A stretch of DNA of 64,000 bases, taken from the NCBI GenBank assembly GCA_020283715.1, contig JAIQCW010000088.1:1-64000 (forward strand), given 5' to 3'. The notes below the pieces were generated by a model. The model worked only from the letters and a program-made list of their open reading frames with translations, was not told the origin of the DNA and made no database searches. Positions within the stretch are counted from its first letter, which is position 1. Every line of letters begins with the position of its first letter. The position numbers were made by a program, and so were the translations under genes. This document shows positions 1-64,000 of the stretch, piece after piece. Source of the DNA: Cytauxzoon felis. Its lineage: Eukaryota > Apicomplexa > Aconoidasida > Piroplasmida > Theileriidae.

Positions 1-240
1 TAGATTTTTTCTGTTCTTCCGGGTAGACATTTTTTTCGTTCTTCCGGGTGTTACACTTGAGGTCGTCCTGCCGTCAGCTCTTTTATTTACCTCACCCTCC
101 GCTTCCCATAGATCAGCAACGGGTAGTCCACTTGAGGTCACATCATTACCTTCGCCACGATCTCTGGGAGTGGCATTACTCTTTAGAGATAGGTAATTGG
201 AAGAAGGCTCCACGCCGAGTGGAACACTGGTTGTAACCTC
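1..240 (-). repeat. Mosaic hairpin repeat block R1 (exonic)
   Basis: GC-rich block inside the Nse1-like exon. Reading on the minus strand it holds CCACCTGAGGT, the unit encoding [17 protein letters not shown], the inverted unit encoding [12 protein letters not shown], a CTG-CCGT-CAG hairpin (68-77) and two CCGGAAGAAC-type short units at the window edge. It is open in the host frame throughout. Confidence 0.9.
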
Positions 241-644
241 AGGTGGAGGAGAGTATGAATGTATATCATTTGATAATTTTCTGGTTGGTGTTTTGATATC
301 ATAATTATTTGAGTTATCGGTATTTAAATCTCTTAATGAATAAAATTTTTTACCAGCGACGATGGTTCTCTATATTTTTTTTACATTAAAGTATAATAAT
401 TTTTCTACATACTACCAACATGAAGCCTACATTGACTAACATATTATTTACATGTTCAATAAATTCTGATTTTCCTTTGAAATTAACACCTGTACCTCTA
501 ATTATACCTTGTACAAGATTATCTACCATTATATCATCCATATACTATAGTATATAAATTTTATAGACATGATATAATTACACATTATACCTTCTCACAC
601 AGCATACGCTGTAAAAATAATTCAACTGCTACATCTGTTGACAT
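1..644 (-). CDS. NSE1: Nse1-like SMC5/6 complex subunit, 3' end outside window
   Basis: The gene reads leftward from an ATG at 644 and runs off the window. Exons join cleanly across introns 545-590 and 370-415. The N-terminus (about 80 residues) starts MSTDVAVELFLQRMLCEKYM and continues with a segment ending EFIEHVNNMLVNVGFMLRTI then VAGKKFYSLRDLNTDN. This matches the winged-helix start of Nse1 (lead 'FLQ.M' helix, 'FI..IN..L' and a 'YY.LVN'-like strand). In the SMC5/6 DNA-repair complex Nse1 pairs with Nse3 and normally ends in a RING; that part is not visible. From about residue 90 the reading frame enters a mosaic repeat (block at 1-240) that stays open and is translated as [17 protein letters not shown] and so on. 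The family call rests on a short weak match. It could be another winged-helix protein. Confidence 0.45.
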
Positions 645-690
645 TATATATATATATTAAAAATTTTTATAATACATTATTATAATAGTT

Positions 691-3200
691 ATTGTTGTAT
701 TAATTTCTGTGATATAAATTCTAAATGTCCAAGTGATGACTCAGCTTTTAATTTCTATAGGGATGAATGAATTAAAATATTTTAACTGTAAATAATATCA
801 TACCTGTAATAATGATCTTGAAGCTTCTAATATATCCCATACTGAATTCTTCTTCATTAATTCAAATATATCAACATACCATATCCTGATGTAAATTTAT
901 TTAATTCTTGATTAGCCCAATATATAGCAGCTGTCTATATATAATTAAATTCATTTAATATTAAATCATACCTGAATAATCTGTAAATCATATAAATCAT
1001 CCAAAACACCCTCACATATCTCCATCCAATATGCCGTTATTAAATAAATTACACCCTCTACATCCAAACGTACATTATCATCCGTCTTCCATATATGACA
1101 TGTTGGTATTTTACACTTCTTCAACCAATCCGATCCAAATTTCTTCGTCATCCTCGAATTTATAAATGGCTGAAATCCATCACATAATGAATTAAATATC
1201 AATAATACATATTCTAATAACTCCGATTGCTTCAAATTCCTCAAAAATGGTGATGGCTTCAACCTCATACCAGAATTTAATTTCATATCAACTCCACCTG
1301 AGGTCCTATCCTTGTCTTGCAGACAGCTTCCTTTATTTAGTTGTCCCTCAAACTCCCGTAGATCGTTTTCGGGTAGTCCACTTCCACTTGAGGTTACATA
1401 CTTATCTTCATCACGTATAACATGTATTTCATGGGGCTTATTATCATTATGAGGTTTTTTATCCCTATATTGCCCCATTCCACCCGAGGTTACATCCAAT
1501 ACATCCTTAGCACCATCTTCCATCATTCCCATGATGGATGATCCATCACTACCTTCTCCACGATCTCTGGGAGTGGCTATACTCTTTAGAGATAGGTAAT
1601 TGGAAGAGGCTCCACGCCTAGTGGAAGACAAGGTTGTAACCTCAGGTCGGGAGCTGTCTGCAGGACGACCTTCGGTAGAGGTAACCTCGTGTGGAGTTGT
1701 ATTATATTTATATATTTCGTATCGATTAAAGTTGAATTTGAGTAGGTGTGAGTTCAAGATGATGGATTTATTGACACCGCCACCAACAAGTGTATTTTTG
1801 AGGTGTATTTTTTCATTTGGTTGGAAGATATGATAGAATTTTTCATTACCGATGGACCATTCTAATAGTAATAGATTATAATTATTGGGTATAGAATGAT
1901 TGTCTTGTATAAAATTAAGGAAATTTTTAATAGATTTAATAAAAAATTCTCCATTATTATCATCATCATGTAATGAATTATAATAATAATCTAATAGAAT
2001 ATTTGTAATAATAATATAATTTGAATTAAAATTTTTTCTTGTATCAAATGGGGTTTTATATTTATCATTAAATTCAAATAATAAATCACCAATTTCATTT
2101 TTTATTAAATTTTTAATATTAAATTCTTTATTTAATAATTTAGCTGACCATATATTTAAAGGTGGTAATGTATTATCCATAATATGAAATATAGCTGTAG
2201 CTTCATTAATAGATTCAATATGTTTAATAATAGAATATTCATTTAATGTATGTATACCAATAATATTTAATGAACCTATTGATGGTTGATCCCATGAAAA
2301 TATTAAATTACCAATTTCTCCCATAATTTTATATATACATTTACCACATGTACCACCAAAAAATCCTATACTTTTACAACCAAATTCTGTACCATGTAAG
2401 CTTAAAATTTCTTCATTTGGGTATTCTACCCAAATACCTTCATCTAATATATAACCATTTCCATCTTCTAATGATAATTTCATATCTTTACTTGTTAAAT
2501 TTATTATTTTAATTAATATAGATCGTTGTGATTTCCTTAAATTAGATAACCAATCATTTGTATTATATACCCATGCAAAATCTAATGGATAATCTATATA
2601 CATTTTTTTTATTAATAATCCTGTCAAATATTTAGGATTTAATTTATTGATAGAAGATGATTTATCTTTTCCATCACCTTCCCCTCCTCTTCCACCTCCT
2701 CCCTCTTCTCCTCCATATAGTTTTTTAATGAGGAATTCTCTAGCTTTTTCAATGAGTAAGCTACCATCATTTGTTTCTTGTATTCTAATTATATATTCTT
2801 CATGTCCATTGAAATCAAATTTATTAGTTTCTTGATAAATTCTACATAAATTCAAGACACTATTTACAGGTGATGATTGTCTAGATCGTCTATTAGTTGA
2901 ATTATCATCAGTTAAATGATCCAATAATGCAAATTGACAAGTTAATTCATTACCTAATGATTTACCTAAATTTATTTGAAGTATATATTTTGAATTTGAT
3001 ATAATTACACCATATTGTAATAAAAGATTACATAAATGACTAGAACGATTAATAATAAATGATATTTTTATACTTGTACCTGGTAATATCCTTTCAGGTA
3101 ACCATGTATTCCATGATCCATGACGTATATAATGAATATGACGATGTAATGTAAATGTAGTTTCATTAAAGATTATAATATCACAAGTACGATTATACAT
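691..3200 (-). CDS. Conserved-looking hypothetical protein with in-frame repeat insert
   Basis: Four exons: 3200-972, 934-880, 841-804 and 754-691, with introns of 37, 38 and 49 bp that restore frame, giving about 795 residues. I do not recognise the N-terminal 540 residues; they lack clear membrane segments and contain a Gly/Glu-rich low-complexity loop (about residues 167-181). After the repeat insert (residues about 555-660) the C-terminus contains FQPFINSRMTKKFGSDWLKK and a later helix pair. It vaguely recalls HEPN/Swt1-type helical domains, which is only a suggestion. The insert is the same peptide module found in neighbouring genes (SSNYLSLKSIATPRDRGEG). The start is the first ATG after AT-rich upstream DNA. 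The coding call is confident because of the long ORF and consistent splicing; the function is unknown. Confidence 0.7.
1298..1700 (-). repeat. Mosaic hairpin repeat block R2 (exonic)
   Basis: Lies inside the unknown gene and is open in its frame. It contains a CTCT-TT-AGAG hairpin (1582-1591), a stem variant AAC-(11 nt)-GTT at 1351-1367 and an extra submodule encoding DKKPHNDNKPH that recurs in R4. Another submodule, encoding GSSIMGMMEDGAKDV, recurs in R18. Confidence 0.9.
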
Positions 3201-3423
3201 TATTTATTAATATTATTTACATGTTTATAGAGCTAAAGTGATGTAATATGTACTCAATGTGTAAATGTACATGTTATAAGCTCAATATTATTTATATATT
3301 ATAATAAAATACAAATATATATGCGATTTTTATAAAATATTATACATTTATAAATTTAATTAATTAATCTAATAATTTATTATAGAGGGTATAATACACA
3401 AAGATATCAACCACCCATCTTGA

Positions 3424-3845
3424 AGATGATAGATCTTCTACTCGCCGTTCCACCTGAGGTTACAACCTTGTCTTCCACTCGCCGTTCCACCTGAGGTCGT
3501 CTTGCAGACAGCTCTTCTATTTACTTTCCCCTTCGCTTCCCTGAGATCAGCTACGGGTTCTCCACTTGAGGTTACATCCATACCTTCTCGTTCTTCCGGG
3601 TTTACAATCTCTGTTCCTCCGGGTAGAATTCCTGTTCTTATGGGTAGACACTCTTCGTTCCTCCGGGTTGATATTTACATTCTTCCAATTACTAACTTCG
3701 GCCACGATCTCTGGGAGTGGCTTTACTCTTTAGAGATAGATAATTGGAAGAGGCCTCCACGGCGAGTGGGATCATAGGTGGAGAGCTGTCTGCAAGAGAG
3801 GAAAGACCTCAGGTGGAGAAGTTGACGGCAGTATGACCTCACAAC
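3424..3845 (-). repeat. Mosaic hairpin repeat block R3 (between genes)
   Basis: Fills most of the 3201-3865 gap just beyond the PheRS beta stop codon, so it is probably 3' UTR or spacer. It has the same sense as both flanking minus-strand genes. It carries a GTCT-TGC-AGAC hairpin (3499-3509), both orientations of the main unit and a run of about 21-nt CCGGAAGAAC-like units (3590-3670). It has stops in the sense frame and no gene function is evident. Confidence 0.88.
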
Positions 3846-3865
3846 TTCTGTTAAAGTTTCATCTT

Positions 3866-6579
3866 TCAATGTGTATAAATTAACTTCTTGATGAGTGTTA
3901 AATCTAATTCGAATACAGATACTAGTGTTGATATTAATAATAAATATAATAAAATATACCTGGCATTGTGATATGAAAGTTATGTAAAACGGTAGGATGT
4001 ATAATACCCATTTTACCAATAGTTAAATGAGGTTCAGATGTCATAATAAATGATACATGTCTTCCAGGTAGAAATGCAGGATCTAATTGATATGATAATA
4101 AATAAATAAATATTAATATACCATCATTCTCTTTTAATTCATATCTATATTTATATATCTCTGGTATATTAGAATTCATTTGATTCAATTCCCATATCTG
4201 ATATTCACTTATAAAACCTAATGAATTAAGTAAAAATTCTGATACACCTTGTATATCCTAAATTATTATCAATTATAATTATATACAATATTTTATTTAT
4301 ACCTCTAATCCAGCTGTTGATATATTCGAATAAGCTACAGTACACATTGTATTATTAATAGCACCCAATTCAGAATTTCTATACCTCCATACAACATCAC
4401 CAATCTAATATATCATTAAATAATAAATGATAATCTATTAATTATTACCTCATATAAACGAATAGGTAATATCGATGCCTTTCTATTAAATATCGTCCTA
4501 AGAATACCAGGTATCAATGATGTCCTCAATAATTCCTGATCAACAACCTGAGAATTCTTTATTGTCACCGGTAAATGATAACCATTAATAATTACACTCG
4601 ATGTCCTGTACTCATCAACATCTCTTCCCACTGCCGTGGTGGCTTCCTTATTTACTTCCCCTTCCAGCTCCCGTGGATCGCTTCCAGGTTCCACCTGAGG
4701 TCCAGTACTAACTTCACCTTGTAATACATGTGAATCATGGGGTTTATTATCATTATGAGGTTTTTTATCCCCATAACCTACTTTTACCCCATTTTCTCCA
4801 CTTGAGGTCGTTTTTTCACACTCGCCGTGGCGGCCTCCTCTATTTACCTCCCCCTCCGCTTCCCTGAGATCAGCTACGGGTTTATCGCCACGATCTCCGG
4901 GAGTGGCTCCACCCTTTAGGGATAGGTAATTGGAAGTGCTGACGGCAGGAGAACGCGAGGCTGTAACCTCAGGTGGAGAGCTGTCTGCAACATCATCTGG
5001 ATGTGTATATAAATTCCAGTTCATATTATGGTAGGCTGATTTGAATGAGTCGAGTATTGGCATGAGTGTTTCTTTATATCCGGCTGAGATGAGTAATGAT
5101 CGTATTCGATTGGACAAGAGTGTTTTTTCTTGTAGTTTACCCATTGAAAAGTATTTTTTCTTGATATTATTATATCCATAGGCGATAGCTACATCTTCGG
5201 CTAGATCACATTGATGTTGTATATCTATATATGAATGATTTATAATTTATATATTTATAATACCAGATCTTGTGATTGGTATAATAGCTTCGATTGTATT
5301 ATCATTTAATATATTTGATGGTATCATCATTTTATTTAATAATTTAGTGATGTCTTTAGCTGTTAGATTTTCAACACCAATACGTGATGAAATATAATCA
5401 ACAGATGCATTAACAATTCTCCTATAGAAATTTCAGGTATAAAATTTATTCAATACAAACGTAGATAAATCAGGTGTAATATAAGTCGTATCATTTTGAT
5501 ATTCAACAAGTACTGGTTCAATACTGATAGATGTTAATAAATAATTATTATAGAAATATACTTAAATGGTTGTTGACAATATTTAGAAAAACATGCGATA
5601 ATTTGATTTAATACAATAGAACCTTTAATTTTATCCGTCTAATAATAAATAAAATTAATAAAAATTTTAAAACATACAGCTGTAACTTCTATAAATATAT
5701 TATTTGTATTTAATGTTAATCTAGTCTTATATGAATTTATTATAGGTGGAAATGAGCAGACCATTCCAGTAGAATCTCTTAGTACAGGATATAATGATGA
5801 CCCATGAAGTATTTTTGTATATGCCTAAATTTATTTAGTTAAATTATTAAAAGTATATATATTATAAAATAACCTTTAATTTCGGATGTGATTCATATAT
5901 ATTCATCAATTCAATACAATTATATACCCTAGTACCATCAGTTAATGGAGAAAATATTATACATTCAGGTGGTTCAAATCCATATGTAAATGGTGGTGTT
6001 GTATAATCTAAATCATGTACACCAACAGCAGCTAAAACTCTATTTCTACATATATTCTGATGTAATTTCTCTTGTAAATCAATTAAACTCTTATAATTTT
6101 CATCTGTTACTTTAACATTTCTTAATATCGCCGAAAATATATATGGACGTATAGAAGAAGACTTTTAAAAAAAATTTATAAATCTCTATACATTAACAAA
6201 CCTCATTAGATACAACAATCTTACAATTTGGATTAGGTTTCGATGGTGAAAGTATAAAATTTGGCGGCTTAACATCCCATCTATATGATAACAGTGCAGT
6301 TACTAATCCTTCTACACATAAAAGATCATATCTAAATGTAATTTTATAAGTTATATAAAAAATATTTAATACCTATTAGCAGGTATTTCTATTTTTAAAA
6401 CCTCTTGACCACAATCATTAACCTCAGTACCGTCATATTCTATACCGAAATCAAAACATAGATTGTCCAACTCCTCCAAGTCTATAAAATTAATATCCAA
6501 TCATTAATCATTATATCATACCTAAAGTCGTATTAAGCTGCTTATAAAATTCACTCCTCAATACCGATATCGTAGGCAT
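3866..6579 (-). CDS. FARSB: Phenylalanyl-tRNA synthetase beta subunit (cytosolic)
   Basis: The gene starts MPTISVLRSEFYKQLNTTL (ATG at 6579) and is split into many small exons by 35-60-bp introns. Recognisable blocks are the N-terminal domain, VLAAVGVHDLDYTTPPFTYG (B3/4 region), a B5-like section with VNHQF-type context, the core AGYKETL...LLRTSLIPGILRTIFN, and the C-terminal GRHVSFIMTSE...GKMGIIHPTVLHNFHITMP. The last exon ends KLIYTH. With the alpha subunit it charges tRNA-Phe. The oddity is a roughly 130-residue repeat-derived insert (DNA 4608-4990) between the AGYKETL motif and the LLRTSLIPG motif, inside the structural core of the catalytic-like domain. The insert is in frame with no stops. 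Family identity is confident; some exon borders are approximate. Confidence 0.9.
4608..4990 (-). repeat. Mosaic hairpin repeat block R4 (exonic, in PheRS beta)
   Basis: Encodes SSPPEVTASRSPAVSTSNYL, then LSLKGGATPGDRGDKPVADL and two versions of the inverted unit (LREAEGEVN and PRELEGEVN), all in the host frame. The hairpin at the second version has an AGC-(11 nt)-GCT stem instead of GCT...AGC. It shares the DKKPHNDNKPH submodule with R2. Confidence 0.92.
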
Positions 6580-6717: not shown

Positions 6718-7010
6718 CGATGTCTCCACCCGCGGTCCAATCACTACCTTCACCTGAAGTTACAACCTTGTCTTCGTCTTGCAGACAGCTCTTCTATTTA
6801 CTTCCCCCTCCGCTTCCCTGAGATCAGCTACGGGTTCCACTTGAGGTTACATCCTCAACTATACTTTCATCACTACACTTCAGCCACGATCTCCGGGAGT
6901 GGTTATACTCTTTAGAGATAGGTAATTGGAAGAGCTCTCTGCAAGAGAATGCGACGTGGATTTGACCTCAGGTGGAGAGTTGTCTTCAAGTTCCCGTAGA
7001 TCACTTTCGG
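6718..7010 (-). repeat. Mosaic hairpin repeat block R5 (between genes)
   Basis: Lies in the 6580-7424 gap between PheRS beta and the ApiAP2 gene, in the same sense as both. It contains a variant hairpin CTCT-GCA-AGAG (6937-6947) and, at its edge, an AGT-(11 nt)-ACT version of the GATC-loop hairpin (6989-7005). The rest of the gap is AT-rich with no gene seen. Confidence 0.88.
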
Positions 7011-7129: not shown

Positions 7130-7360
7130 GTCTACCCGGAAGAACGAAGATCCACCTGAGGTTCAATACTACACTCCTTTCCACTCGCCGTGGAGGCCTC
7201 TCTATTTACTTCCCCCTTCGCTTCCCTGAGATCAGCTACGGGTCCACTTGAGGTCCAATCACTATACTTCAGCCACGATCTCTGGGAGTGGCTATACTCT
7301 TTAGAGATAGGTAATTGAAAGAGCTGTCTGCAAGACCAACGGTGGAGATGAGTGGACGAC
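7130..7360 (-). repeat. Mosaic hairpin repeat block R6 (3' of ApiAP2 gene)
   Basis: Begins about 65 bp beyond the ApiAP2 stop and has the same sense. An open frame of about 100 codons crosses it only because the module is open; it lacks an ATG of its own and is not called as a gene. The short link to the AP2 stop (about 7390-7425) contains a CTTCGCTCACTTCGTTCG string found elsewhere in the window. Confidence 0.88.
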
Positions 7361-43740: not shown

Positions 43741-43837
43741 TCAAATAAAGTACTATATCAAGCTTTTGTTCATCCAAGATACTTCTATCCTTCCAACAAA
43801 TGTGGAATCATACAACTCTCCACTTTAGATCCATCCT

Positions 43838-43965
43838 TCTTCCACCTGAGGTCTAATCCAACTCTTCTCCACTCGCCGTGGTGGCTTCCTCTATTTATCT
43901 ATCTCTAAAGAGTAGAGCCACTCCCGGAGATCGTGGTAAGGGAAGATATGATTGGATATAGGGTT
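43838..43965 (+). repeat. Mosaic hairpin repeat block R9 (3' of SMARCAL1-like gene)
   Basis: Short copy (about 130 bp) between the helicase stop and the S1 gene stop (convergent genes). It has only one orientation of the main unit, read in the sense of the helicase: CCACCTGAGGT, CCACTCGCCGTGG hairpin, CTCT-AA-AGAG and GCCAC-(11 nt)-GTGG(T). Probably in the helicase 3' UTR. The rest of the 43741-44071 gap is AT-rich. Confidence 0.88.
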
Positions 43966-44071
43966 GAATGAGCAATGATTGTTAGATTGTTCACTTAGAG
44001 GTGGATGGGTATATTATGGCAATGTATAATATTTTAATTTAAGTAAAATTAAATTTACATGGTATTAATTT

Positions 44072-47000: not shown

Positions 47001-48285
47001 AGTAAACTTCCTTCCAGTAGATGTGGAGCCTATCTGCAAGACAAAGGAAGTATCGAGGGAACGTCAATGGATGACGACTGCTCAAAGCTAGTTTATGGTA
47101 TATATTGGATATTTACCTATTTCGGATTAGATCAATGGATTTAATATATAATCTGGGTATAGTCGCACCCACATAAATCGGTTGTCTTTTGATTCCAGTG
47201 ATGTGTTTGGGTAGTTTGCGATCGCGTACGTGTAAAAATGCATCGACACTGGCACCTATGTCTATATAAAAACCTAATGGGCATGCACGTTTGACCTTCC
47301 CAGAGACACATTCTTCAACCTATAGTGTATTGACAAAAATATAAAATTCTAGGTGATACCTTATACGAGTGTATTGGTCGGCGTAATCTCTCTTCATGAT
47401 AATCAACTTCAAGTAATGACAACCTTAAACTTCTACCACGTGGTTCAATGTGTTTTACATAAACAGCTATATCTTCACCAGATTTTAAACTTAAATCTAC
47501 ACGATCTATCCAACCTTCACTCATATCACGCGCGTGTAATATACCATAACAAGTAGATCCAACGTCGATCAACGCATATGTAGGATATGCCACTGCAACT
47601 CTACCCACTATCTTCTCACCAATACTATAAAACTGAGGACTCAAACGCTTAGGATTCTTCGTTATACGCCACCTCTATATATATCAATGTAATTAAAGAA
47701 TACAATGAAGGTTGTTGTACGGGTAGAGTCATCCAATTATATCCAATCCTCATTATCGCCACGATCTCTGGGAGTGGCTATACCGTTTACGGGGAGATAA
47801 TCAGAAGAGCTGACGGCAGGAAAGACCTCAAGTGGAGAAGCCTCCACGGCGAGTGTAAAAGAAGATTGACTAAGTATACAACACTTAAATTACATGATAT
47901 TTCCGTGATATACCTGTGTAAGATGAGCTGGTTTTCCATCTGGGAATAGTGGTTTTCTTAATAGTAAATCCATATCATGTTCTAGGATGGCTTTAACTAG
48001 CCTTTTACTTATGTATCTGTAAGGTTGATGTAGATATAAAAAGTAAACAAACTGAAGCTTTATATTACATTTGGGAGTGCTTTTGGTGGCCTCAAAACCT
48101 TTGACATCATTTTCCGGTTGTAAGAGATTGAACTTAATTTTTTTGAAAGTAGCTGTTTCTTTGACTGGTAAAGTGTTTAATTTATACTTGAATGATGATA
48201 AATGTGTATTGTTGTTTATGTAGAATGGTATTACAAATGTCATTAAATGGCAGAATATAATAGGAATTGATGTGTAAAGCAGCAT
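44072..48285 (-). CDS. S1-domain RNA-binding protein, signal-peptide bearing, two repeat inserts
   Basis: The ATG at 48285 gives MLLYTSIPIIFCHLMTFVIP, a likely signal peptide for the apicoplast route. Exon 2 (after a 240-bp intron holding repeat R12) has an S1 fold: YSIGEKIVGRVAVAYPTYAL then GILHARDMSEGWIDRVD and SLRLSL. A second S1-like region reads VEECVSGKVKRACPLGFYID. Then come a charged coiled segment (TGEETLEKQAAYLGDYKRDM), a region with PFEYSNKIIGTDEDD, and two exonic repeats (R11, R10). The end is IVGRDDPNMERYVNLLRPKP...FGKQSEN. It may bind apicoplast ribosomes or RNA, by analogy with plastid S1 proteins; no better assignment is possible. Introns lie near 46955-47117, 46576-46614, 45494-45533 and 44463-44497. 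Its start overlaps the upstream FAS1 stop. Confidence 0.7.
44698..44935 (-). repeat. Mosaic hairpin repeat block R10 (exonic, S1 gene)
   Basis: In-frame in the S1 gene. Encodes SHPLAESSPLDVQSTSHSL, the unit SSNYLSLKSKATPRDRG and the inverted unit AADLGEAEGE. It holds the CTCT-TGC-AGAG hairpin variant twice. Confidence 0.92.
45586..45808 (-). repeat. Mosaic hairpin repeat block R11 (exonic, S1 gene)
   Basis: In-frame. Encodes [50 protein letters not shown] and ADGRTTSGG. A compact copy with one unit in each orientation around a CCACTCGAGGTCC spacer, the cleanest example of the inverted-repeat layout. Confidence 0.93.
47756..47852 (-). repeat. Mosaic hairpin repeat block R12 (intronic, S1 gene)
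   Basis: About 100-bp copy inside the 240-bp first intron of the S1 gene, in host sense. It has the variant stem ACGG/CCGT (CCGTTTACGG on the plus strand at about 47786-47795) instead of CTCT/AGAG. A weaker scar (GTCTTGCAGATAG) lies in the next intron near 47030. Confidence 0.85.
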
Positions 48286-50120: not shown

Positions 50121-51859
50121 ATGCAGTTACCCAAATACATCGAACAGAATCCTAATCGCTTCCTGTTCACCTCTGAATCTGTCAATGAAGGTCATCCAGA
50201 TAAAATCTGTGATCAAATTTCAGATGGTATTCTTGATGCATGTCTATTAAAGGTATTTTTCAATAATTTTAATTTTTCTATACATTTCATCTTCATTACT
50301 ACAGGATCCAGAAAGTAAAGTCGCATGTGAAGCCTGTGCTACGAAAGATTTTATACTCATTTTTGGTGAAATTTCTACACTCGCCAATATTAATTATGAA
50401 CAAGTCGCCAGAGATGTCATTAGGAATATTGGATACACATCCGATAAATATGGACTGGACGCGGATACCGTCGAAATCGCCATCAAAATTAACCAACAAG
50501 CACCAGAAATCGCTAACGCTGTACATATTGGTAAAAATGTCGACGAAATTGGAGCCGGTATGTTAATATCCAAACATAAAGGAATAACACAATCGAGCTA
50601 TCATGCACCTTATCATTCTCTTGTGGAGGACCCTTCACCTGAGGTTACAACCTTATATTCCACTAGGCATAGTAACTCATCAATTGAGGTCAATCATGCC
50701 GTCAGCTCCTTCATTTACTTCCCCGTAAACGGTAATGCCACTCCCAGAGATCGTGGCGGTTAGAAGGTATGGATTGGACCTCAAGTGGAACCCGCAGCTG
50801 ATCTCTGGGAAGCGGAGGGAGAAGTAAATAAAAGAGGCGCCACGCCCAGTGGAAAGAAACTACATCAGGTTGTGTCGAGTGAAAATAAATGGCTCTGAGT
50901 GTAAGATTTGCTGATAGATTATGATTTATTCATTGTTTTTTCTTGATTGTATATGTATTCTTATAGGTGATCAGGGTATAATGTTTGGTTATGCTACTAA
51001 TGAGACACCGGAATTTATGCCATTATCGCATATATTGGCTACAAAATTGGGTGAGCGTTTAGCTAAAGTTCGGAAATCTAATATAATTCCTTATTTATGT
51101 CCGGATGGTAAGACTCAGATAACTGTGGAATATTCTAGGACACCGGATGGTAATTTAGAGCCTAAAAGAGTTCATACTATAGTTATATCTACACAACATG
51201 AAGAAAATGTGAGTATTAATTAATAATATATCCCTCATTTTTATATATTTTAGATTAATATTGATCAATTAAAATCGGATTTGATGGAACATGTTATTAA
51301 AAAGGTTATACCACATGATTTTTTAGATGATAATACAGATTATTTATTAAATCCATCAGGTTCATTTGTTAATGGTGGACCAGGTTCAGATGCTGGTTTA
51401 ACTGGACGTAAAATTGTAGTTGATACATATGGTGGTTGGGGTGCTCATGGTGGTGGATCGTTTTCTGGTAAAGATTGTACAAAAGTTGATAGATCTGGTG
51501 CATATTATGCAAGATGGGTAGCAAAATCATTAGTATATAATGGTTTTTGTAAAAGAGTATTAGTACAAATATCATATTCTATTGGTATTGTAGAACCATT
51601 ATCATTACATATAAATTGTTATGGTACATGTGCTAATGGTTATACAGAAAAAGATCTTGAACGTATTGTTGTCAGAAATTTTGATTTTAGAGTAGGTTAT
51701 ATTATCGAACAATTACAACTTAAAAGACCAATCTTTAAAAAAACCTCAGTATATGGACACTTTGGTAAAAATGATCCCGACTTTTTATGGGAAATTCCTA
51801 AAGATCTTTCTCATGAAAAAAATAATCATATCCAACTATGTAATCATGTCAAACATTAA
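50121..51859 (+). CDS. MAT: S-adenosylmethionine synthetase
   Basis: Makes SAM from methionine and ATP. Four exons: 50121-50252, 50305-50557, 50967-51209 and 51255-51859. Conserved motifs: [102 protein letters not shown] and [14 protein letters not shown]. The active-site His, Asp and Lys of these motifs are all present. Intron 2 (50558-50966, 409 bp) is about ten times the usual length because it contains repeat block R13; it sits just before the GDQG motif. Total about 410 residues, normal length. Repeat R14 follows the stop directly. Confidence 0.96.
50625..50875 (+). repeat. Mosaic hairpin repeat block R13 (intronic, SAM synthetase)
   Basis: Inside the 409-bp intron 2, in host sense. It uses the CCGT-AA-ACGG hairpin variant and the intermediate spelling TTTACTTCCCCGTAAACGG that links the two unit types. 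Its frame is interrupted (RDRGG then stop), as expected for intronic sequence without coding constraint. Confidence 0.9.
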
Positions 51860-51875
51860 TTATTAAAACTCTTCT

Positions 51876-52345
51876 TCCACTCGAAGTTACCTCTACCAAC
51901 GGTCTAACATCTATTCGTCCTGCAGACAGCTCTTCCAATTACCTATCTCTAAAGAGTAATGCCACTCCCGGAGATCGTGGCAATGATGGAGGTGATGAGG
52001 AAAAACAGCAAATATCAACCCGGAAGAACGTAGATGTTCAACCCGTAAGAACAGGAAATCTACCCGGAGGAACAAAAGATGTCAACCCGGAAGAACAGAC
52101 ATTGAACGTAGTTAATGGACCTCAAGTAGATGTGGAGAACCCGGAGCTGATCTCAGGGAAGCGAAGGGGGAAGTAAATTGAGAAGGCCTCCACGGCGAGT
52201 GGAACGACCTCATGTGGAACCCGTAGCTGATCTCAGGGAAGCGGAGGGGGATGTAAATAGAAAAGCTGTCTGCAAGACGACCTTGAGTGGTACGGCGAGT
52301 GGAAAGTACAGTAGGATTGTAACCTCAGGCGGAGAAGCTGGCGGC
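51876..52345 (+). repeat. Mosaic hairpin repeat block R14 (3' of SAM synthetase)
   Basis: Large copy (about 470 bp) starting just after the stop codon, in host sense. It includes a run of four or five 21-24-nt units based on CCCGGARGAAC (about 52015-52100) and two copies of the inverted unit. Not called as a gene: no ATG-led frame spans it. The remaining 52346-52672 is AT-rich spacer. Confidence 0.9.
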
Positions 52346-52672: not shown

Positions 52673-55169
52673 ATGTATATTATAATAATTTTATATTTGT
52701 TATTTATTGATGTTATTAGTTTCAAGTGTTTATGCACTGATGTATCCTATTTGAAATCAAATTTTTATATAGGAAGAAATAAATATTATAATGATCCATT
52801 AGGTTTTATAAAATCTGATTATTATAGATTTAATAATAAAAATAAAGTTTATGATAATATAAATTATTTTTTTAATAAATTTGATGAATTAAATGATGAT
52901 GTTATAAAAAATGAAGTTTATAATACTATTGGATGGGAATATATTAAGAAGTCTTTAAATTCATTAATAAATAATGATGATAATGAAGATACTTGTGACA
53001 TTAATAAATATTTTAGTTTTAAAACTATACTTAATAAATATGAAATTTATAATCAAGTATTAAATATAGTTAATTATAGTAAAAATGGTAATGATGATAA
53101 ATTGAAATTATTTGGTATACCAATTGCTATAAAAGATAATATGGCATTAAAAGGTATTAAATTTACTGATGGTATGTTAATTATATTTATACATCAAGCA
53201 TCTTACTTCTAGGTAATGATTTTATTAATGATTTTAAATCAACTTATACATGTACGGCTGTTGATATTCTAATAAAATCCGGTGCTATTATCATTGGTAA
53301 AACTAATTTAGATGAATTTGGTGTAGGTGCTGAAACTTTACATACTATAAATCCAAATTGTATCGGAAAAGCAACTGGTGGTTCATCCGGTGGATCAGCA
53401 AATGCTGTAGCCGGTAATATTGTTATTGCAGCACTAGCCACTGATACAGGTGGATCAGGAAGATTACCAACAGCCTATTGTGGATGCGTAGGTTATAGAC
53501 CATCCTATGGACTCGTTAGTAGATATGGAATGAGCGAATTGTCAGCTAATTTCGATTGTATCAGTATTGCCGCATCAAATATAAACAATGCAAAACTCAT
53601 ACTCAAACAAGTCGCACAATTCGATCCCAAAGATATGTACAGTATCAAATCTACACATGTCATACAAGAACTCAATAATAACTGTAAGTCAATAACAAAC
53701 ATAATAACATGATGGTTGTCTACCTGAAGTCCAATCCTACCATCCATTCCACTCGCCGTTCCATCTGAGGTTACATCCACCTTCCTTCGTCTTGCAGACA
53801 GCTTTCTCTATTTACTTCCCCCTCCGCTTCCCGGAGATCAGCTACGGGTTCTCCACCTGAGGTCCAGTAGTACTCTTCATTCCACTCGCCGTGGTGGCCT
53901 CTCTATTTACCTCACCTCGACTCCCATGGATCGTCTCGGATTCTTCGCCACGATCTCCGGGAGTGGCTTTACTCTTTAGAGATAGGTAATTGGAAGAGAC
54001 CTCCACGGCGAGTGGAAGACAAGGTTGTAACTTCAGGTGGAGTTGGATGGAAGAGAGGTTGGACTTATTGTAGGTGTAACTTCAAGAGAAGAGAGTATGA
54101 TTTATTTATTCTTTACTTTCATTACTTTAGTTGTGCCATCTATTGAGAATATTAGGGTTGGTATTTTTGATAAGGATAAGTTACTTGAATCACGTCTCAT
54201 TGACGAATACATTTATAACGAGTTGAATTATGTCGAGGAGTTATTAAAGAGATTGGGCATTGAAACACATATAGTTGAATATATCAACCTCGATGATGAC
54301 GCTAAAGTATACCATACATTTGTAGCTACACAAATCGTCTCGAATATACAACGATTTAAAAATAAAATTTACACCAATAGCAATGCTCAACTCGAAGATA
54401 TCATCAAACCCAAAACATTACACAGATACAAAATGGGTACGTTTATACAATAATACATCTATATCCAACCATCTCTACCAAATACCAATCCACCTCCCTA
54501 GTCCTGCAGACAGCTCTTCTCCACATGAGGTCCATCCTGCCGTCAGCTCTTCTAATTACCTATCTCTAAAGAGTATAGCCACTCCCAGAGATCGTGGCAA
54601 TGAAGAAGGTAGTGATGTAACCTCAAGTAGAAAATCCGTAGCTGATCTCAGGGAAGCGGAGGGGAAGTAAATAGAGAAGCTCCATGCAATGGAAAAGATG
54701 AACCTCAGGTGGAGGAGCTGTCTGCAAGACGAAGAGAGTTGGATTGGACCTAGGTGTAAGATCTGCTAGTAGACTATGATTCATAATATTATCATAGGTA
54801 TGGATGCGATACGTGAAATTGATTATGAAAAGTTGTTATCTGATGAGCTCGTTCTATTGAAGAATTGGATAGAACGAAATGGTATATTTACGCGCTTGGA
54901 TTATGTGATCATGCCAGTATCGGCTATAGAGACTCCACCAAAAAGTTACAAGAGCAGTACATTATCAGAGGTAATGTGATTTATAGTCTATATGATACAT
55001 GAATATACAGGGTGAACGTTTTACTACTGTATCAGCTATGTTAGGCTTGTGTTCGATATCTATACCATTAAAGAATAAGAATAAGACTTCAGCTATACAA
55101 ATTATGGGTGCATATATGCAAGATTCGAAATTATTAGAATTTTCTTCAATATTGGAGAAGGTATTATAA
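52673..55169 (+). CDS. gatA: Glutamyl-tRNA(Gln) amidotransferase subunit A, apicoplast-type
   Basis: Converts Glu-tRNA(Gln) to Gln-tRNA(Gln) with GatB. The N-terminus MYIIIILYLLFIDVISFKCL is a signal peptide followed by a basic, Asn-rich transit-like stretch. Amidase signature: LFGIPIAIKDNMALKG (catalytic Lys), ATGGSSGGSANAVAGN (cis-Ser) and ALATDTGGSGRLPTAYCG (Ser nucleophile; G-S-G instead of the common G-S-I). Then GYRPSYGLVSRYGMSELSAN. Introns: about 53175-53211, 53684-54130 (447 bp, repeat R15, antisense), 54437-54797 (361 bp, R16) and about 54974-55012. The C-terminus (MDAIREIDYEKLLSDELVLL...AYMQDSKLLEFSSILEKVL) fits. An ORF caller that ignores these introns would break it into fragments. 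Confidence 0.9.
53724..54040 (-). repeat. Mosaic hairpin repeat block R15 (intronic, antisense in gatA)
   Basis: Lies in the 447-bp third... gatA intron at 53684-54130 but in reverse orientation relative to the host gene; the sense peptides would be read on the minus strand. One hairpin has the stem GAC-(11 nt)-GTC (loop TCCCATGGATC), a further compensatory variant. Confidence 0.9.
54498..54760 (+). repeat. Mosaic hairpin repeat block R16 (intronic, gatA)
   Basis: In the 54437-54797 gatA intron, in host sense: SSNYLSLKSIATPRDRG spelling, then the inverted unit VADLREAEG with a frame break. So two neighbouring introns of one gene carry copies in opposite orientations. Confidence 0.9.
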
Positions 55170-55395: not shown

Positions 55396-56371
55396 ATGAT
55401 GAATAATGATAAATTCGAATGTAATATCTGTTTTGATGATGTTAAAGAGCCCGTTGTTACTGTATGCGGTCATTTGTTCTGTTGGAATTGTATACTCACA
55501 TGGATGAATCGCGATAATTACCAATGCCCAGTTTGTCAAGCTGCAATTACTAGAGATAACGTCATACCATTATATGGTCACGGACGAGAAAATACAGATC
55601 CAAGGTAAGGTGATCTCATCTACTAATTCATCTCCCGCATTAGGAATAAACCCACTGAACCTAGACCCAAGCCTAAAAGGCCAACAACCTCTACACCATT
55701 TAGTCGTCAATCCAATGTAAGTTGAAGTGTCAACCTACTTTTATCCATTGGCTATGATATGCCCACCAAATCATCTTCAATGGATGATTGTATGATATTT
55801 ATATTAAATATTCAGCTTTTTGGTGGTTATAGTAATAGAATATCAATATCGATCGGAACATTCCCATTCTCACTAATGCTACCCATGGGATTCAATGCCG
55901 GATCAATCGGACTACTCAACATGTTCACCAGCCAAGCCGATACATCTCAAATGACAGATGGTACGTTTACTAACATTTCTACTCTAACAGTTGTCTTCCG
56001 CCTGAGGTCAGTCCTGCCGTCAGCTCTTCTATTTACCTCCCCCTCCGCTTCCCTGAGATCAGCTACGGGTTCTCCACCTGAGGTCCAGTAACTATTTTCA
56101 TTGCCGCCACGATCTCCGGGAGTGGCTCTATTCTTTAGAGATAGGTAAATAGAAGAGCTGTCTGCAAGACGAAGACAAGGTTGTAACCTCGAGTGGAACG
56201 GCGAGTGATAGGACACCTAAGTGGAATTGGATAGGAAAGGGTGTATTATATGGATCTCATTAGATAAAATTTCATGATACATTTATAGAGCAGAGAAGGC
56301 TTCATACTAATTCGATGTTTTTGATGTTTACGGGGATATTGATAATAACGTATATATTGTTTTGTATGTAA
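55396..56371 (+). CDS. RNF5: RNF5/RNF185-like membrane RING E3 ligase
   Basis: ER-anchored ubiquitin ligase, likely in ER protein quality control. N-terminal C3HC4 [45 protein letters not shown]. Then a short linker ([16 protein letters not shown]) as in RNF5. A middle exon gives [20 protein letters not shown]. After intron 55961-56288 (328 bp, repeat R17) the last exon supplies a C-terminal hydrophobic anchor: [19 protein letters not shown], stop. The total is about 190-200 residues, the family size. Without the last exon the protein would lack its anchor. Confidence 0.88.
55985..56225 (-). repeat. Mosaic hairpin repeat block R17 (intronic, antisense in RNF5-like gene)
   Basis: Lies in the last intron of the RING gene in reverse orientation to the host. 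It carries a hybrid unit: the [17 protein letters not shown] type but with GTAAATAGAAGAG at its end, as in the other unit type, which supports common origin of the two. Confidence 0.9.
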
Positions 56372-58569: not shown

Positions 58570-59085
58570 ATTTATATCATTTACAATTGTAATTTATCAA
58601 TAAAATAATTACTTTACATTTATAAACATAGAAATTTTAATTTATACAACATCAATACAGTACAATGGTATCGATACTAATGTCATGTATCTATACATAA
58701 AGGACTATAAAAATACAGTTTATATATTAAAATAACAAATATTTATCAAATACCACCTGGTATTTATAATTTTATATCTATTAAATTGTATATTAGATTC
58801 TGATGGCATTTTACATTTCCTGTACACCAACCACAAAATTGCGGGGATTCAAGATACAAGTTACTAAAGTATCAATGAGAATAATACGAATGAAACTGTA
58901 ATAAAATACAAACAAGGTGAAATAATGACAACTGTATAGATCATCTGACAAAGTGAGTGAATAAAAGATGGAAATGAGAATAACATATACATGTAAATAT
59001 AAAGGTAATGTAAATTATAGTATAAAGTAAACTTTGTCTTATCACAACTCTCATTCACTTTTATTATACCCTCATAGATGTCTAC
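58570..59085. other. AT-rich spacer
   Basis: About 515 bp upstream of the coiled-coil gene and up to repeat R18. No ORF with homology and no RNA gene recognised. Confidence 0.5.
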
Positions 59086-59365
59086 TTGAGGTCCAATCCA
59101 CCTGAGGTTACAACCTTATGTTCCACTCGCCGTGGTGGCCTTCTCTATTTAGTTGTCCCTTCGCTTCCCTGAGATCAGCTTCGGGTTCTCCACTTGAGGT
59201 CCAATACAACACATCCTTAGCACCATCTTCCATCATTCCCATGATGGATGATCCATCACTACCTTCGCCACGATCTCTGGGAGTGGCTATACTCTTTAGA
59301 GATAGGTAATTGGAAGAGGCCACCACGCCTAGTGGAACAGTGGTTGTAACCTCAAGTGGAGTCAA
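59086..59365 (-). repeat. Mosaic hairpin repeat block R18 (3' of phospholipase gene)
   Basis: Lies about 75-350 bp beyond the phospholipase stop, in its sense. It shares the GSSIMGMMEDGAKDV submodule with R2 almost base for base over about 110 bp (59209-59320 against 1500-1610), showing that composite copies spread as a whole. Confidence 0.9.
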
Positions 59366-59437: not shown

Positions 59438-62155
59438 CTAGTAATCTTTTTTCCAAAAGTGTGAGTGTGTGAGTATGTGTGAAAAGTAAGGGTGTATGCA
59501 GTTGCAGACGATGGCTCTTTTGATGGCATAGTGTTGAACATGGAAGAATGATTTTGGTTGTAGATTATCATTTGATGGTATGGAATGGAATGATGTATTT
59601 GAGTTTACATTTCTATCGATGTGTACATCATGGAATCCGATATGATTATTGACTTTATCGATATCGAGTGTATTTATTACATCATTTAGATAATTAGTTT
59701 GTAGTTTATGTGGTTGTATATTTCCGTCATTATTGCTTGTATCTTTTTTGATTCCTTTAGCTTTGATTAATTTGGATTGTAGAAAGATCCAATTTTCGAA
59801 TGAGATATATTCTTGTAGTATCCATCTGTATGCATCGCATTTTCCCCAGTCATGTATGAATTTAATATTATCATTTGTGGTAGAATGTAGTGAGATATTG
59901 AAGAGTTGTTTAAGTGTAATATTACTTTTAAGTAGTTTATCTGTATTAACATATCTTAATATTAATTTCATAGGTGGTGTAATACAATGTAATAATTCAT
60001 CTAATGCTCTTACTTTATTCATTAACATTACATCAGTAACTTGATAATGTAATGAGATTTCATTATGTAACCAATCTAATAATGTTATTGGTGATGCTAA
60101 GAATCCACCTCTAAATTTAAATCTACTATTACCTAATTTATTTATTATATCATAATTATATAAATTAGTTTTTATACCCCTTGATGATATATTTAATATA
60201 TTTATATTAGATTCAAAATCTATTGCTAATTTAAATAATTTGAGTATCCTACTGTTAGCACCCCATATTATATTTATTTTATTATCGGATGTATTTTTAT
60301 TTTTTTTATATTCATTATAGAAATTGATATAATCTTTAATTTCATTAATCCAAGAATCATAAGTAGTATTTAATTTTTTATCCCATAATATAGAAATAAT
60401 ACCTTTTAATCTAATATAATGTATAAAATAATTATCTTTAAAATGTAATTTAGGTAATATATAATCATTATATAATAATTGTTTAGATACATGTGATATA
60501 GCTAATGGATAAGGAGCGATTTTAATAGTACGTATAGAATTAGTAATAAGATCTTTAAATGGATAAATCATAGATAAAAATCCATCATATACTTTACTAC
60601 CTTTATATATAATAGATTTTTTAGTAGATATAAATGGTACATTACAACTAGCTCTAATACATGTTTTTAAATCATTATTATTATCAAATTTTGTTTGTGA
60701 TATACCTTTAAAATATAAATAATTAAATTTAGAATATGATATTTTTAATTCACCAATACGTTTATTAATAAGTTTATATGTATTATTAGTAAATGTTTCA
60801 TCACATATATTAGAAACTATATCATCTAATCTATTTTTAGATCCATATACAAATACATTTAATGATATACGTTCAATTATATTCATAATATTAGAAAAAC
60901 CATTCATAATAATAGATGATACTATAGTTAATGAACCAGATGATGAACCAGATAATGGTGTTGTTATATTAATTATATTTAATTCTGTTAATAATTCTAT
61001 AATACCAATATAATATGATATCATAAAACCAGATGGAAAAAATGAAAATCCTATATTATTATAATTTATATTTGTATTTGTTAATCTAGTACAATCTAAT
61101 ATAATAGAATCTTTCATTTTACGTTCTATATCATATCTATGATTTAATTTAGATATTGCACCAATCTCTTCATAATATTCTAATAATTCACTTACAAGTA
61201 ATTTACTATAACCAATCTCTTTAAATATTATATCAATATTCAAACAACATTTATTATAATTAATTAAATTATTATCATCACCAAGTAATATTCTATTAAC
61301 AGAATCTATTAATGATAAATATAAATTATAATAACCAGGAAGATTAACATGATTATAATTATCATTATCATTATGTACTCTATATATCAATTTAAAACCA
61401 GATGAATATAAATCATATACAACATCATCATTAATTAAACCAGGCTTCATCAAATACATCAATAATTGAATACCATTCTCCATCTCTAATGATAAATCAA
61501 ATTCAGAAGATACCTTATCAATTACATGATCTTCAACTATTCCACTGACACTGACTTCGTCTTGAAGTACATCTTTTCCATTGCATGGAGCTTCTACACT
61601 TGAGGTCGTCCTGCCGTCAGCTTCCTTATTTACTTCCCCCTCCAGCTCCCGTAGATCGCTTCCAGGTTTTCCACTTGAGGTCTCTACCTGAGGTCTAATC
61701 ACTACATTCGAGGTCTGTTCTTCCGGGTTGACATCTTTTGTTCCTCCGGGTAGAATTCCTGCTCTTACGGGTTGATTATATACGTTCTTCCGGGTTGTCA
61801 TCTTTTGTTCTTCCTCATTACCTTCGCCACGATCTCCGGGAGTGGCATCACCCTTTAGGGATAGGTAAATAGAAGAGCTGTCTGCAAGACCAACGGTGGA
61901 GGTGGATTGGACCTCAAGTGGAGAGCTCTCTGCAAGAGTTACATTGGAGTGGGTAGTAGAGGGTAATGTTGTAACCTCGAGTGGAGTAGATGTATCGGAC
62001 TTGTGGGTAGAAGCTGATTCATTTGCATTGTTTGTTCGAGTAGAAATATTTTTTCGGAAGAAATGATGTAAATTTGAAGGGATTTTTTTGAAAATGGTAT
62101 CATTCTGATAAATGTTGATATCTTTGAGATAGACTGGTAGTTTATGATTAGCCAT
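59438..62155 (-). CDS. Patatin-like phospholipase
   Basis: Single exon, 905 residues, MANHKLPVYLKDINIYQNDT. Patatin-like acyl hydrolase of the PNPLA/ATGL/SDP1 type. Motifs: FSFFPSGFMISYYIGIIELL (oxyanion region), TPLSGSSSGSLTIVSSIIMN (G-x-S-x-G, nucleophile Ser), then VPFISTKKSIIYKGSKVYDG (D-G catalytic Asp). Likely cleaves acyl esters of phospholipid or triacylglycerol. The N-terminal 200 residues are mostly repeat block R19, in frame. The C-terminal part (about 740-905) is unassigned. No signal peptide seen. Confidence 0.82.
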   Translation of the reverse strand: MANHKLPVYLKDINIYQNDTIFKKIPSNLHHFFRKNISTRTNNANESASTHKSDTSTPLEVTTLPSTTHSNVTLAESSPLEVQSTSTVGLADSSSIYLSLKGDATPGDRGEGNEEEQKMTTRKNVYNQPVRAGILPGGTKDVNPEEQTSNVVIRPQVETSSGKPGSDLRELEGEVNKEADGRTTSSVEAPCNGKDVLQDEVSVSGIVEDHVIDKVSSEFDLSLEMENGIQLLMYLMKPGLINDDVVYDLYSSGFKLIYRVHNDNDNYNHVNLPGYYNLYLSLIDSVNRILLGDDNNLINYNKCCLNIDIIFKEIGYSKLLVSELLEYYEEIGAISKLNHRYDIERKMKDSIILDCTRLTNTNINYNNIGFSFFPSGFMISYYIGIIELLTELNIINITTPLSGSSSGSLTIVSSIIMNGFSNIMNIIERISLNVFVYGSKNRLDDIVSNICDETFTNNTYKLINKRIGELKISYSKFNYLYFKGISQTKFDNNNDLKTCIRASCNVPFISTKKSIIYKGSKVYDGFLSMIYPFKDLITNSIRTIKIAPYPLAISHVSKQLLYNDYILPKLHFKDNYFIHYIRLKGIISILWDKKLNTTYDSWINEIKDYINFYNEYKKNKNTSDNKINIIWGANSRILKLFKLAIDFESNINILNISSRGIKTNLYNYDIINKLGNSRFKFRGGFLASPITLLDWLHNEISLHYQVTDVMLMNKVRALDELLHCITPPMKLILRYVNTDKLLKSNITLKQLFNISLHSTTNDNIKFIHDWGKCDAYRWILQEYISFENWIFLQSKLIKAKGIKKDTSNNDGNIQPHKLQTNYLNDVINTLDIDKVNNHIGFHDVHIDRNVNSNTSFHSIPSNDNLQPKSFFHVQHYAIKRAIVCNCIHPYFSHILTHSHFWKKDY
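61558..61990 (-). repeat. Mosaic hairpin repeat block R19 (exonic, phospholipase)
   Basis: In-frame, about 430 bp, near the N-terminus. It contains a run of CCCGGAAGAAC-type units (about 61705-61800; peptide RAGILPGGTKDVNPEEQT) and the hairpin AGC-(11 nt)-GCT at 61644-61660. It also has the CCCT-TT-AGGG stem variant. Confidence 0.93.
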
Positions 62156-62247
62156 TATTATTTAAACTTCCATTGATTAGGATAATATATAGATTTAATA
62201 TACATATTTAATCAACTAAATTTTCTATTATACATTTGAAATTAATA

Positions 62248-64000
62248 TTATTTTTTATAAAAGTATTTTATGAATTGTTTAATATGGGATGATGTGACCT
62301 GTAGTGATTTGAAATTATGTATGGTGTAAATTAATAATTCTTTACAAAATAAAGCAATCTTTGAACATTTTTTAATGTCTAATGTTATTAATTCATCTAC
62401 AATATCATCCAATGATGATAAATTATCACATCGACCCTTCAAGTACAATTGGAGACATTCTGATACTTCATTGCGATGTTCTAATCCATTAGGCATTGTA
62501 ATTACTTCAGTAAATATAGTCTTCTATATTGATTTTAATATATAGAATTCAATTTACCTTAAGATTCTTGGGTAATTTAGATACATCTTCTATTGTCGTC
62601 ACAAATAGTACAGAATTATCAGATAACCATATAGATCTATCCATAAAAGATTCCAATTCAATACATATTGAATGAAGCATCCTCCTTATATAGTATTCAT
62701 CTCCATTCAATACATGCAAATCGTCCAAGACAACAATACATTTCACGCTCTCACGTCTCGTCTCTATAGTAATGATGTCATTCTAACAACCACCTTAAAA
62801 GACTGGTATCTACAATACCTTTATTTCAACCAGCTTCTCCACCTAAGGTCGTATCCACCATGTCTTGCACTTCACCCGAGGTCTTTCCACTCGCCGTGGA
62901 GGCTCTTCTATTTACTTCCCCTTCCAGCTCCCGTAGATCGCTTCCAGGTATTCCACTTGAGGTCTCCACTTGAGGTCCAATCACTAACCTCAACACTGCC
63001 ACGATCTCTGGGAGTGGCTATACTCTATAGAGATGAATAAATAGAGAAGGCTCCACGCCTAGTGGAATGACCTCGAGTGGAGAGCTGACGGCAGGACAAC
63101 CTCAAGTGGAGCTGAGTGGAAATTTGTGTATAATTAATTTATAGTATGTATATAGAATTAACTTACTATTGATCATTATTTGATTGAATTGGTGTTTGAT
63201 GGTGTTGAAAAATGTATGTATGATCTTTTCGGACAGGCCGACTTGCGGTTTAATAAATGATGTGATTGTAGCATTAATGAGGATACAATCGAGTTCATGT
63301 GCGATATTTGTAGCGAGTAATGATTTACCAGAGCCAGGTGTACCTTCAATAATTAGACCAATCGATTTATCATTAGTATTGGAATCGAAGTATTTATTCA
63401 ATTTATTAATGATATCATCAGCCAAAATCATTGATTTATACCCAAATAATCTGAAATATTCACCATTCTTAATTTCCAATGGTACTATATCCATATTTCT
63501 ACAATACTTTAATGATGTATGAATTATACAATTCGTAGGCATATTATACAAAAAATTCAATGGTCTGATCAATTCTATAGACCTCTCATAACAAGAAACC
63601 AATAAATCATACGATACATTTTCCAAACAGCATAAATTATTTTCATCCCTCAAGGAAACACTCTGATCAAACATTTGTCTACCTTCAGATCTTCCATTCA
63701 CCCCTCCTTCGTCCTGCAGACAGCTCTCCACCTGAGGTCCAGTCCTGCCGTCAGCTCCTTTATTTACTTCCCCCTTCGCTTCCCTGAGATCAGCTGCGGG
63801 TATTCCACTTGAGGTTACATCCTCACTTCCGCCACGATCTCCGGGAGTGGCATTACCGTTTACGGGGAGGTAATTAGGAGAGCTGTCTGCAAGACCAACA
63901 GTGGAGGCGAGTGGAACAGAGTTGGATTGGACATCAAGTGGGGAAGAGTTATTTTTTTGTTTGGTCTTTTTGATGATATCGCATTTGGTATACTGTATTA
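62248..64000 (-). CDS. AAA-family ATPase, N-terminal part outside window
   Basis: Coding continues beyond the right edge. From 64000 the frame reads YTKCDIIKKTKQKNNSSPLD, then repeat R21 in frame, then CLENVSYDLLVSCYERSIEL and LIIEGTPGSGKSLLATNIAH (Walker A). Intron 62764-63166 (403 bp, repeat R20) precedes KCIVVLDDLHVLNGDEYYIR (Walker B with D-D rather than D-E). Then SVLFVTTIEDVSKLPKNLK, a 34-bp intron, and a C-terminal helical lid ending KQFIKYFYKK. The single visible AAA module is most like PEX1, AFG2 or NSF-type modules, but I cannot choose. The missing Glu in Walker B may mean low ATPase activity in this module. Confidence 0.65.
62838..63115 (-). repeat. Mosaic hairpin repeat block R20 (intronic, AAA gene)
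   Basis: Inside intron 62764-63166 of the AAA gene, host sense. Another hybrid unit: CTCTATAGAG palindrome with AATAAATAGAGAAGG at its end. Confidence 0.9.
63712..63945 (-). repeat. Mosaic hairpin repeat block R21 (exonic, AAA gene)
   Basis: In-frame in the AAA gene; encodes [34 protein letters not shown], and AADLREAKGEVN. It has the CCGT-TT-ACGG hairpin (63856-63865), the same stem variant as R12 and R13. Confidence 0.93.

Follow-up and report, generated by a model that had tools for sequence, protein, structure and literature searches.

Foldback elements and MITEs combine inverted repeats with high copy number and carry no mobility gene, and the GC clusters of yeast mitochondria are GC-rich mobile hairpins set in AT-rich DNA. 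The Rickettsia palindromic elements are, in the portions of the source available to us, short bacterial palindromic repeats of ~150 bp that lie in frame in unrelated genes and encode a recurrent peptide, with 44 insertions counted in R. conorii in the first report (PMC10969869). PARCELs, palindromic coding repeats of bacteria and eukaryotic microbes, are described in the accessible part of their report as tandem 25-residue amphipathic repeats in open reading frames without assigned function (PMC2996958), and the introner elements of Amoebophrya, per the excerpts available, are invasive hairpin repeats in genes that are themselves introns (PMC7789003). A survey of 64 apicomplexan genomes reports LINE-like elements from some Babesia and from T. 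equi, no transposable element of any kind from C. felis, T. parva, T. annulata, or T. orientalis, and, across the phylum as a whole, an absence of DNA transposons; MITE candidates were removed as likely false positives and models unassociated with transposable elements were discarded, so a family of the kind described here could have been dropped (PMC9141347). By the account of a 2008 study, Theileria had until then yielded no transposable elements (PMC2612703). For C. felis, the genome paper of 2013 gives 9.1 Mb and a GC content of 31.8%, and in the portion accessible the word "insertion" is absent while "repeat" occurs once, for a tandem repeat in cf76 (PMC3748084). No description of the hairpin family was found in the open-licence literature searched, to the extent that its texts were accessible.

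We analyzed a window of 64,000 bases (C53:1-64000) of the Cytauxzoon felis genome assembly, which comprises 8,623,106 bases in 181 contigs. The window has a GC content of 31% and is punctuated by short blocks of ~50% GC and higher; the original prediction had counted about 21 of these, and that count holds. The D core GCCACTCCCRGAGATCGTGGC, at up to three mismatches, has 21 matches in the window, where 100 shuffles gave a mean of 0.00, and CCACYTGAGGT, at up to one mismatch, has 67 against 0.59 expected. Clusters were called by masking enriched 10-mers, with a minimum of 40 masked bases; this gave 24 clusters in the window, from which 57155-57243 (low-complexity coding sequence) was dropped, and the remaining 23 (Table 1) correspond to ~21 blocks after merging of the split pairs 1291/1478 and 4623/4794. 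Units resembling CCCGGAAGAAC recur at ~22-bp spacing within some copies (3588-3668, 52014-52099, and 61716-61814). At 57338-57549, an ORF rich in glutamine and glutamate contains 45-bp units in tandem, which do not belong to the hairpin family.

Table 1. Repeat clusters of the window, with strand, type, and genic context (U, CCCGGAAGAAC units)
Position	Strand	Type	Context
13..249	-	D-type	Non-exonic by open-frame test
1291..1399	-	Arm part of exonic insertion	ORF 969-3203 (-), protein without Pfam match
1478..1687	-	D-type, exonic	ORF 969-3203 (-)
3440..3821	-	D-type with U units	Non-exonic
4623..4710	-	Arm part of insertion	PheRS-beta ORF 4419-5246 (-)
4794..4990	-	D-type, exonic	PheRS-beta ORF 4419-5246 (-); site empty in solved homologues
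6734..7003	-	D-type	Non-exonic
7131..7345	-	D-type	Downstream of AP2-domain ORF 7428-9056 (-)
18146..18618	+	D-type, exonic	Sec7-domain ORF 14384-20056 (+), element 1
19379..19720	+	D-type, exonic	Sec7-domain ORF 14384-20056 (+), element 2
43816..44006	+	D-type	Directly after SNF2-helicase ORF 41161-43737 (+)
44701..44917	-	D-type, exonic	ORF 44494-45546 (-)
45583..45808	-	D-type, exonic	ORF 45506-46579 (-), which stops 26 residues past the element
47755..47855	-	Short D-type	Sole open frame antisense, 98 aa, judged chance; removed from exonic count
50635..50857	+	D-type	Between S-adenosylmethionine synthetase exons; read as intronic
51868..52329	+	D-type with U units	Beyond C-terminal ORF of S-adenosylmethionine synthetase gene
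53722..54060	-	D-type, antisense	Between exons of amidase-family gene; read as intronic
54485..54751	+	D-type	Non-exonic; downstream in amidase-gene region
56001..56207	-	D-type	Non-exonic
59084..59361	-	D-type	Downstream of patatin-like ORF
61555..61986	-	D-type with U units, exonic	Near N-terminus of patatin-like ORF 59441-62161 (-)
62832..63111	-	D-type	Non-exonic
63707..63932	-	D-type, exonic	AAA-ATPase ORF 63105-64106 (-), which extends past the window end

The family extends over the whole genome. The exact 18-base D core pattern occurs in 1235 + 1295 = 2,530 copies (reversed-pattern control, 0/0) and CCACCTGAGGT in 1755 + 1753 = 3,508 (control, 0/1). The original prediction of a mosaic hairpin family that lies in frame in unrelated genes in the manner of the Rickettsia elements is supported, and on a genome-wide scale. 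A sample of 261,239 bases (the whole of contig C53, C4:1-120000, and C8:1-40000) contains 136 repeat clusters with a median length of 226 bp, covering 30,648 bp or 11.7%. The D core is present in 98 clusters, an AT-rich core in 14, and neither in 24; judged by position, many of these 24 are second halves of AT-core copies, 6 are parts of exonic insertions, and 1 is low-complexity sequence. Since AT-core copies split into two half-clusters, we estimate that the 136 clusters represent ~122 elements, and extrapolation from 98 in 261 kb gives ~3,200 D-type copies genome-wide. Rfam returned no match for the window at gathering scores, nor for six loci at E <= 1. Copies are absent from ~24 kb of the window (19721-43815); placing copies at random on C53 2000 times never produced so large a gap, whereas the longest copy-free runs of C4 and C8 are unremarkable. 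On C53, 30 of 40 neighboring pairs are co-oriented (21.5 on average in shuffles, with 2 of 2000 as high), and the corresponding counts on C4 and C8, 22/46 and 13/22, lack this bias. A conserved small-subunit rRNA motif has one match in the genome, C181:15589-15607, perhaps of plastid origin, and the nuclear 18S gene may be missing from the assembly. A Cytauxzoon felis 18S primer, at up to two mismatches, has no match, a result that carries no information if the gene is missing, and COX1 was likewise not found.

Modules had been predicted to combine in differing orders and numbers; they are real and their combinations do vary, but the mosaic is not free, because the slot order is fixed. D-type copies follow the order E-[Q or R]-X-N-D-spacer-E'-(L' or M')-Y'-E'. 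Among 97 copies scored, with modules matched at up to 2-9 mismatches, X stands before N/D in 96, N before D in 79, and E before X in 78; L' or M' follows D in 85 and Y' follows L' or M' in 80, and L or M occupies the wrong arm or orientation in 0/97. Shuffling the clusters leaves at most 1 match in 97 for the cassettes, L, and M, and 18 for the short E module, which is matched in 95 of the 97 real copies. X and Y are each drawn from five cassettes (P, T, S, s, and B, X never being B), of which P/T and S/s are alike enough that fuzzy matching may confuse them. A pairing of the cassettes of the two arms was considered and rejected: X and Y are the same in 17 of 82 copies versus 19.5 expected under independence, indicating that each is chosen independently. 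In the second type the core is rich in AT and mostly self-complementary, and L/M arms flank it on both sides. When the profile of core plus arms is set against its own reverse strand, the match covers nearly everything in 7 of the 14 copies and the greater part in 2 more; DNA folding of one copy gave z = -8.13, and a 17-mer from the core, at up to one mismatch, occurs 236 times genome-wide (control, 0). RNAalifold reported almost no conserved structure for the AT core, but the alignment was a poor basis for the prediction, since single copies were represented by both of their strands among its 23 rows.

We interpret the family, with a probability of about 0.7, as a lineage-specific, non-autonomous foldback repeat of a piroplasm nuclear genome; it would spread as DNA and persist in exons only where it encodes a polar peptide in frame. 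The main competitor of this reading, which we consider unlikely, is a classical non-autonomous DNA transposon of the MITE or foldback kind, mobilized by a transposase supplied in trans. Inverted repeats, high copy number, and copies in which no mobility protein is seen are what such a transposon would present; the insertion sites and ends fit it less well. Shared flanking words of at least 6 bp occur in 2 of 72 copies versus 1.33 expected, so target duplications of that length are not in excess, and the outermost module varies, being E on the left in 67 of 97 copies and E' on the right in 62. Nor did the genome yield a DDE_3 transposase match, in a search whose control was detected in 3/14 genomes; a DDE_1 search was likewise negative, but its control was silent too, and a transposase may have gone unnoticed. 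The sole reverse-transcriptase-domain match (C56:73693-74436, two stretches in one 1010-aa frame) is perhaps telomerase.

Under the preferred foldback-repeat interpretation, copies probably spread as DNA, as judged from the copies resident in one genome. The likeliest route would be template switching during repair or replication, together with gene conversion, seeded by the hairpin-forming modules; the same processes would also shuffle the cassettes. We favor template switching because the ends vary, duplications of at least 6 bp are lacking, and one near-identical tract includes flanking host DNA. This tract, 329 bp long and 99.7% identical between the two Sec7 copies, runs from a point 36 bp outside the cluster into its interior; among the 45 longest of 3,793 matches, the others that join different copies are ~84-93% identical. 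This one case has the form expected of a template switch or gene conversion, and not of precise transposition. More tentatively, and at somewhat less than even odds, we propose a new class of nuclear mobile DNA that has neither transposase nor fixed ends, exchanges its cassettes independently through hairpin-seeded template switching, and has entered many genes as translated peptides. If that proposal is correct, a proteome would have undergone insertional mutagenesis naturally and on a large scale.

To identify exonic copies, we required that a cluster be open in one frame including 75 bp on each side. By this test 34 of 136 clusters, about a quarter, are exonic, and they include 27 D-type copies, all but one of which (26) run in sense. 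Two were dropped as chance, the antisense-open copy at 47755-47855 and a 54-bp cluster on C4 (ORF of 94 aa), leaving 32 in-frame clusters within genes of unrelated function, 26 of them D-type and all of these sense. Because ~54% of unmasked windows (1,976/3,673) score as coding, an exonic share of 32/136 is low. The claim that the blocks interrupt genes is thus upheld for part of them: 10 of the 23 clusters in the 64-kb window lie in open frames, and the others do not, with 2 read as intronic and 11 as intronic, untranslated, or intergenic.

Hosts recognized by Pfam include a Sec7-domain protein (two inserts), PheRS-beta, an AAA ATPase, and CRAL-TRIO, HAT-repeat, RRM, LCCL, G-patch, and glutamate-cysteine ligase proteins; the patatin-like ORF scores 20.9 bits against the Pfam patatin model, under its cut-off, and other hosts have no Pfam match. 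In the three genes compared (Sec7, glutamate-cysteine ligase, and PheRS-beta), element sequence is absent at the site in the relatives; the outcome named as refuting the original prediction, orthologues all sharing the insert at one place, is thus not observed. The Sec7 alignment comprised 12 of 13 close piroplasm matches, and all 12 lack element sequence: element 2 spans 119 aa, where 10 of the 12 relatives have 0 residues and two have 7 and 9, and element 1 spans 160 residues versus 14-65 in relatives. The best Sec7 relative is Theileria equi (52% identity), and an unrooted tree containing no Cytauxzoon sequence places the window protein beside it with a split support of 74%. In PheRS-beta, the two matched stretches are separated by 138 residues versus 13 in the solved structure 7dpi_B and by 147 versus 19 in 7by6_B; the second stretch is weak alone (i-Evalue 0.017 and 0.17) but in line, and for the other two of the four structure matches one stretch is listed. 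The glutamate-cysteine ligase insert measures 94 residues against 8 in T. equi and 3 in a whale; Babesia and one further relative have 40-61 residues there, and T. orientalis has 115 and 130. This site is a variable loop, in which most piroplasm relatives carry at least 40 unrelated residues, and the case is weaker for it. A similar peptide, DKKPHNDNKPH, occurs as an extra module in the exonic insertions of both ORF 969-3203 (-) and the PheRS-beta ORF. The peptide region 515-665 of ORF 969-3203 gave no match at E <= 1 among 398 word-sharing candidates of similar length.

Exonic copies differ from the others in register and in codon pattern; in these counts, and in the cassette-pairing count, the antisense-open copy was grouped with the non-exonic ones. 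The D-to-L register is in one phase in 21/21 exonic pairs versus a 19/20/13 distribution among 52 others, so outside exons the D and L modules disregard the reading frame. N-to-D is fixed everywhere (17/17 exonic and 59/59 other copies), and the S-to-D pair is unlocked, with 8 and 2 copies in two phases in exons and 14/8/1 elsewhere. Within the 54-base N-D segment, after exclusion of 3/97 copies with at least 14 mismatches, the mismatch rates at the first, second, and third codon positions are.147,.060, and.151 for the 25 exonic copies, as against.101,.093, and.095 for the 69 non-exonic ones. The second position accounts for 27/161 exonic mismatches versus 116/359 of the others (Fisher 2e-4; 0/5000 label permutations as low). 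Two linked columns of an exonic subfamily supply part of this contrast, which without them gives Fisher p = 0.007, with 3/5000 permutations as low. Stops in the segment number 0/25 in exonic and 4/69 in other copies. The element peptides of 23 host ORFs contain 76% disorder-promoting residues versus 50% in the remainder, and 19% hydrophobic residues versus 37% in the host ORFs. From these sequence features, the exonic copies look translated. The synonymous share of single-change codons is the same in the two groups (29/95 exonic versus 60/223 others, p = 0.59), and constraint on the peptide is therefore weak. We suggest that insertions into exons are filtered by reading frame, and that those found there may have been tolerated as polar and probably disordered peptides placed in variable loops.

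The equal synonymous share also bears on whether the elements serve the host, as RNA hairpins or translated linkers kept for regulation or protein diversification, a possibility that we regard as improbable. The strict slot order and the conserved N and D modules might be taken as marks of such a function; yet outside exons the copies point either way and keep no common register, the Pfam-recognized hosts are unrelated in function, and the exonic copies fold less well. One Sec7 copy forms a single long RNA hairpin (z = -9.07), and another copy is weaker (z = -3.13). For D-type copies 150 bp or longer, each compared with 25 shuffles, z falls below -2 in 51 of 60 non-exonic but 14 of 25 exonic copies, with medians of -4.14 and -2.07, respectively. 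The middle pair of the N-module stem is T-A in 51/51 non-exonic rows fitting the pattern; in exonic rows it is T-A in 9/14 and C-G in 5/14, both sides having changed. Under the foldback-repeat interpretation, the hairpin would decay in exons while the frame is retained.

A bias of orientation outside exons was considered and rejected: relative to the nearest coding signal, the counts are 25 sense and 16 antisense for D-type copies (41 of 70 called) and 5 and 1 for AT-core copies, leaving 29 D-type and 8 AT-core copies without a call. Seven non-open copies, at least two of them antisense, are flanked by same-strand coding signal and hence lie between exons, in gaps that, read by eye, are introns longer than the copy. 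Such copies raise the idea that the family consists of introner-like elements, that is, multiplying introns removed from the mRNA through AG/GT ends or hairpin-guided splicing. Many copies do have AG/GT in both inverted ends (CCACCTGAG/GT...CCTCAG/GTGG), and hairpin introners are documented in the alveolate parasite Amoebophrya (PMC7789003). However, the open frame, the single D-to-L register in 21/21 pairs, and the codon-position pattern of exonic copies would be needless for spliced DNA. By eye, the AG/GT ends of Sec7 element 1 fall in different codon phases, such that splicing would shift the frame, and the gaps around the seven between-exon copies, assessed by eye, are longer non-coding stretches than the elements themselves. 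We therefore regard introners as improbable. GC-rich blocks within AT-rich DNA could also suggest assembly, vector, or foreign contamination, but this is almost certainly wrong, given that copies sit in frame inside intact piroplasm genes and the exact core patterns have no match in prokaryote and viral collections.

Among known systems, the nearest to the family is that of the Rickettsia palindromic elements. Like these, it is a short palindromic repeat found in frame in unrelated genes; unlike them it resides in a nuclear genome, is built around either of two cores with cassettes that can be exchanged, and runs to thousands of copies, and its exact N-D pattern occurs in 0 stretches of the prokaryote genome collection, a search of sequence identity and not of distant homology. 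It shares with foldback elements and MITEs the inverted repeats, the high copy number, and the lack of a visible mobility gene, but differs in its variable ends and in the absence of DDE_3 and of target duplications of at least 6 bp. Whereas Amoebophrya introners are introns, exonic copies here look translated and between-exon copies occupy longer gaps. In contrast to PARCELs, the inserts are polar and non-tandem, single or few in any one protein, and their hosts are diverse, several of them being conserved. Yeast mitochondrial GC clusters, likewise GC-rich hairpins in AT-rich DNA, are organellar, while the present copies lie in nuclear genes. A repeat coverage of 11.7% in 261 kb contrasts with the description of piroplasm genomes as nearly free of mobile DNA, and it makes testable both the tolerance of proteins for large insertions and the spread of hairpin DNA with no evident enzyme. 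To our knowledge, this family would be the first eukaryotic nuclear counterpart of the Rickettsia palindromic elements.
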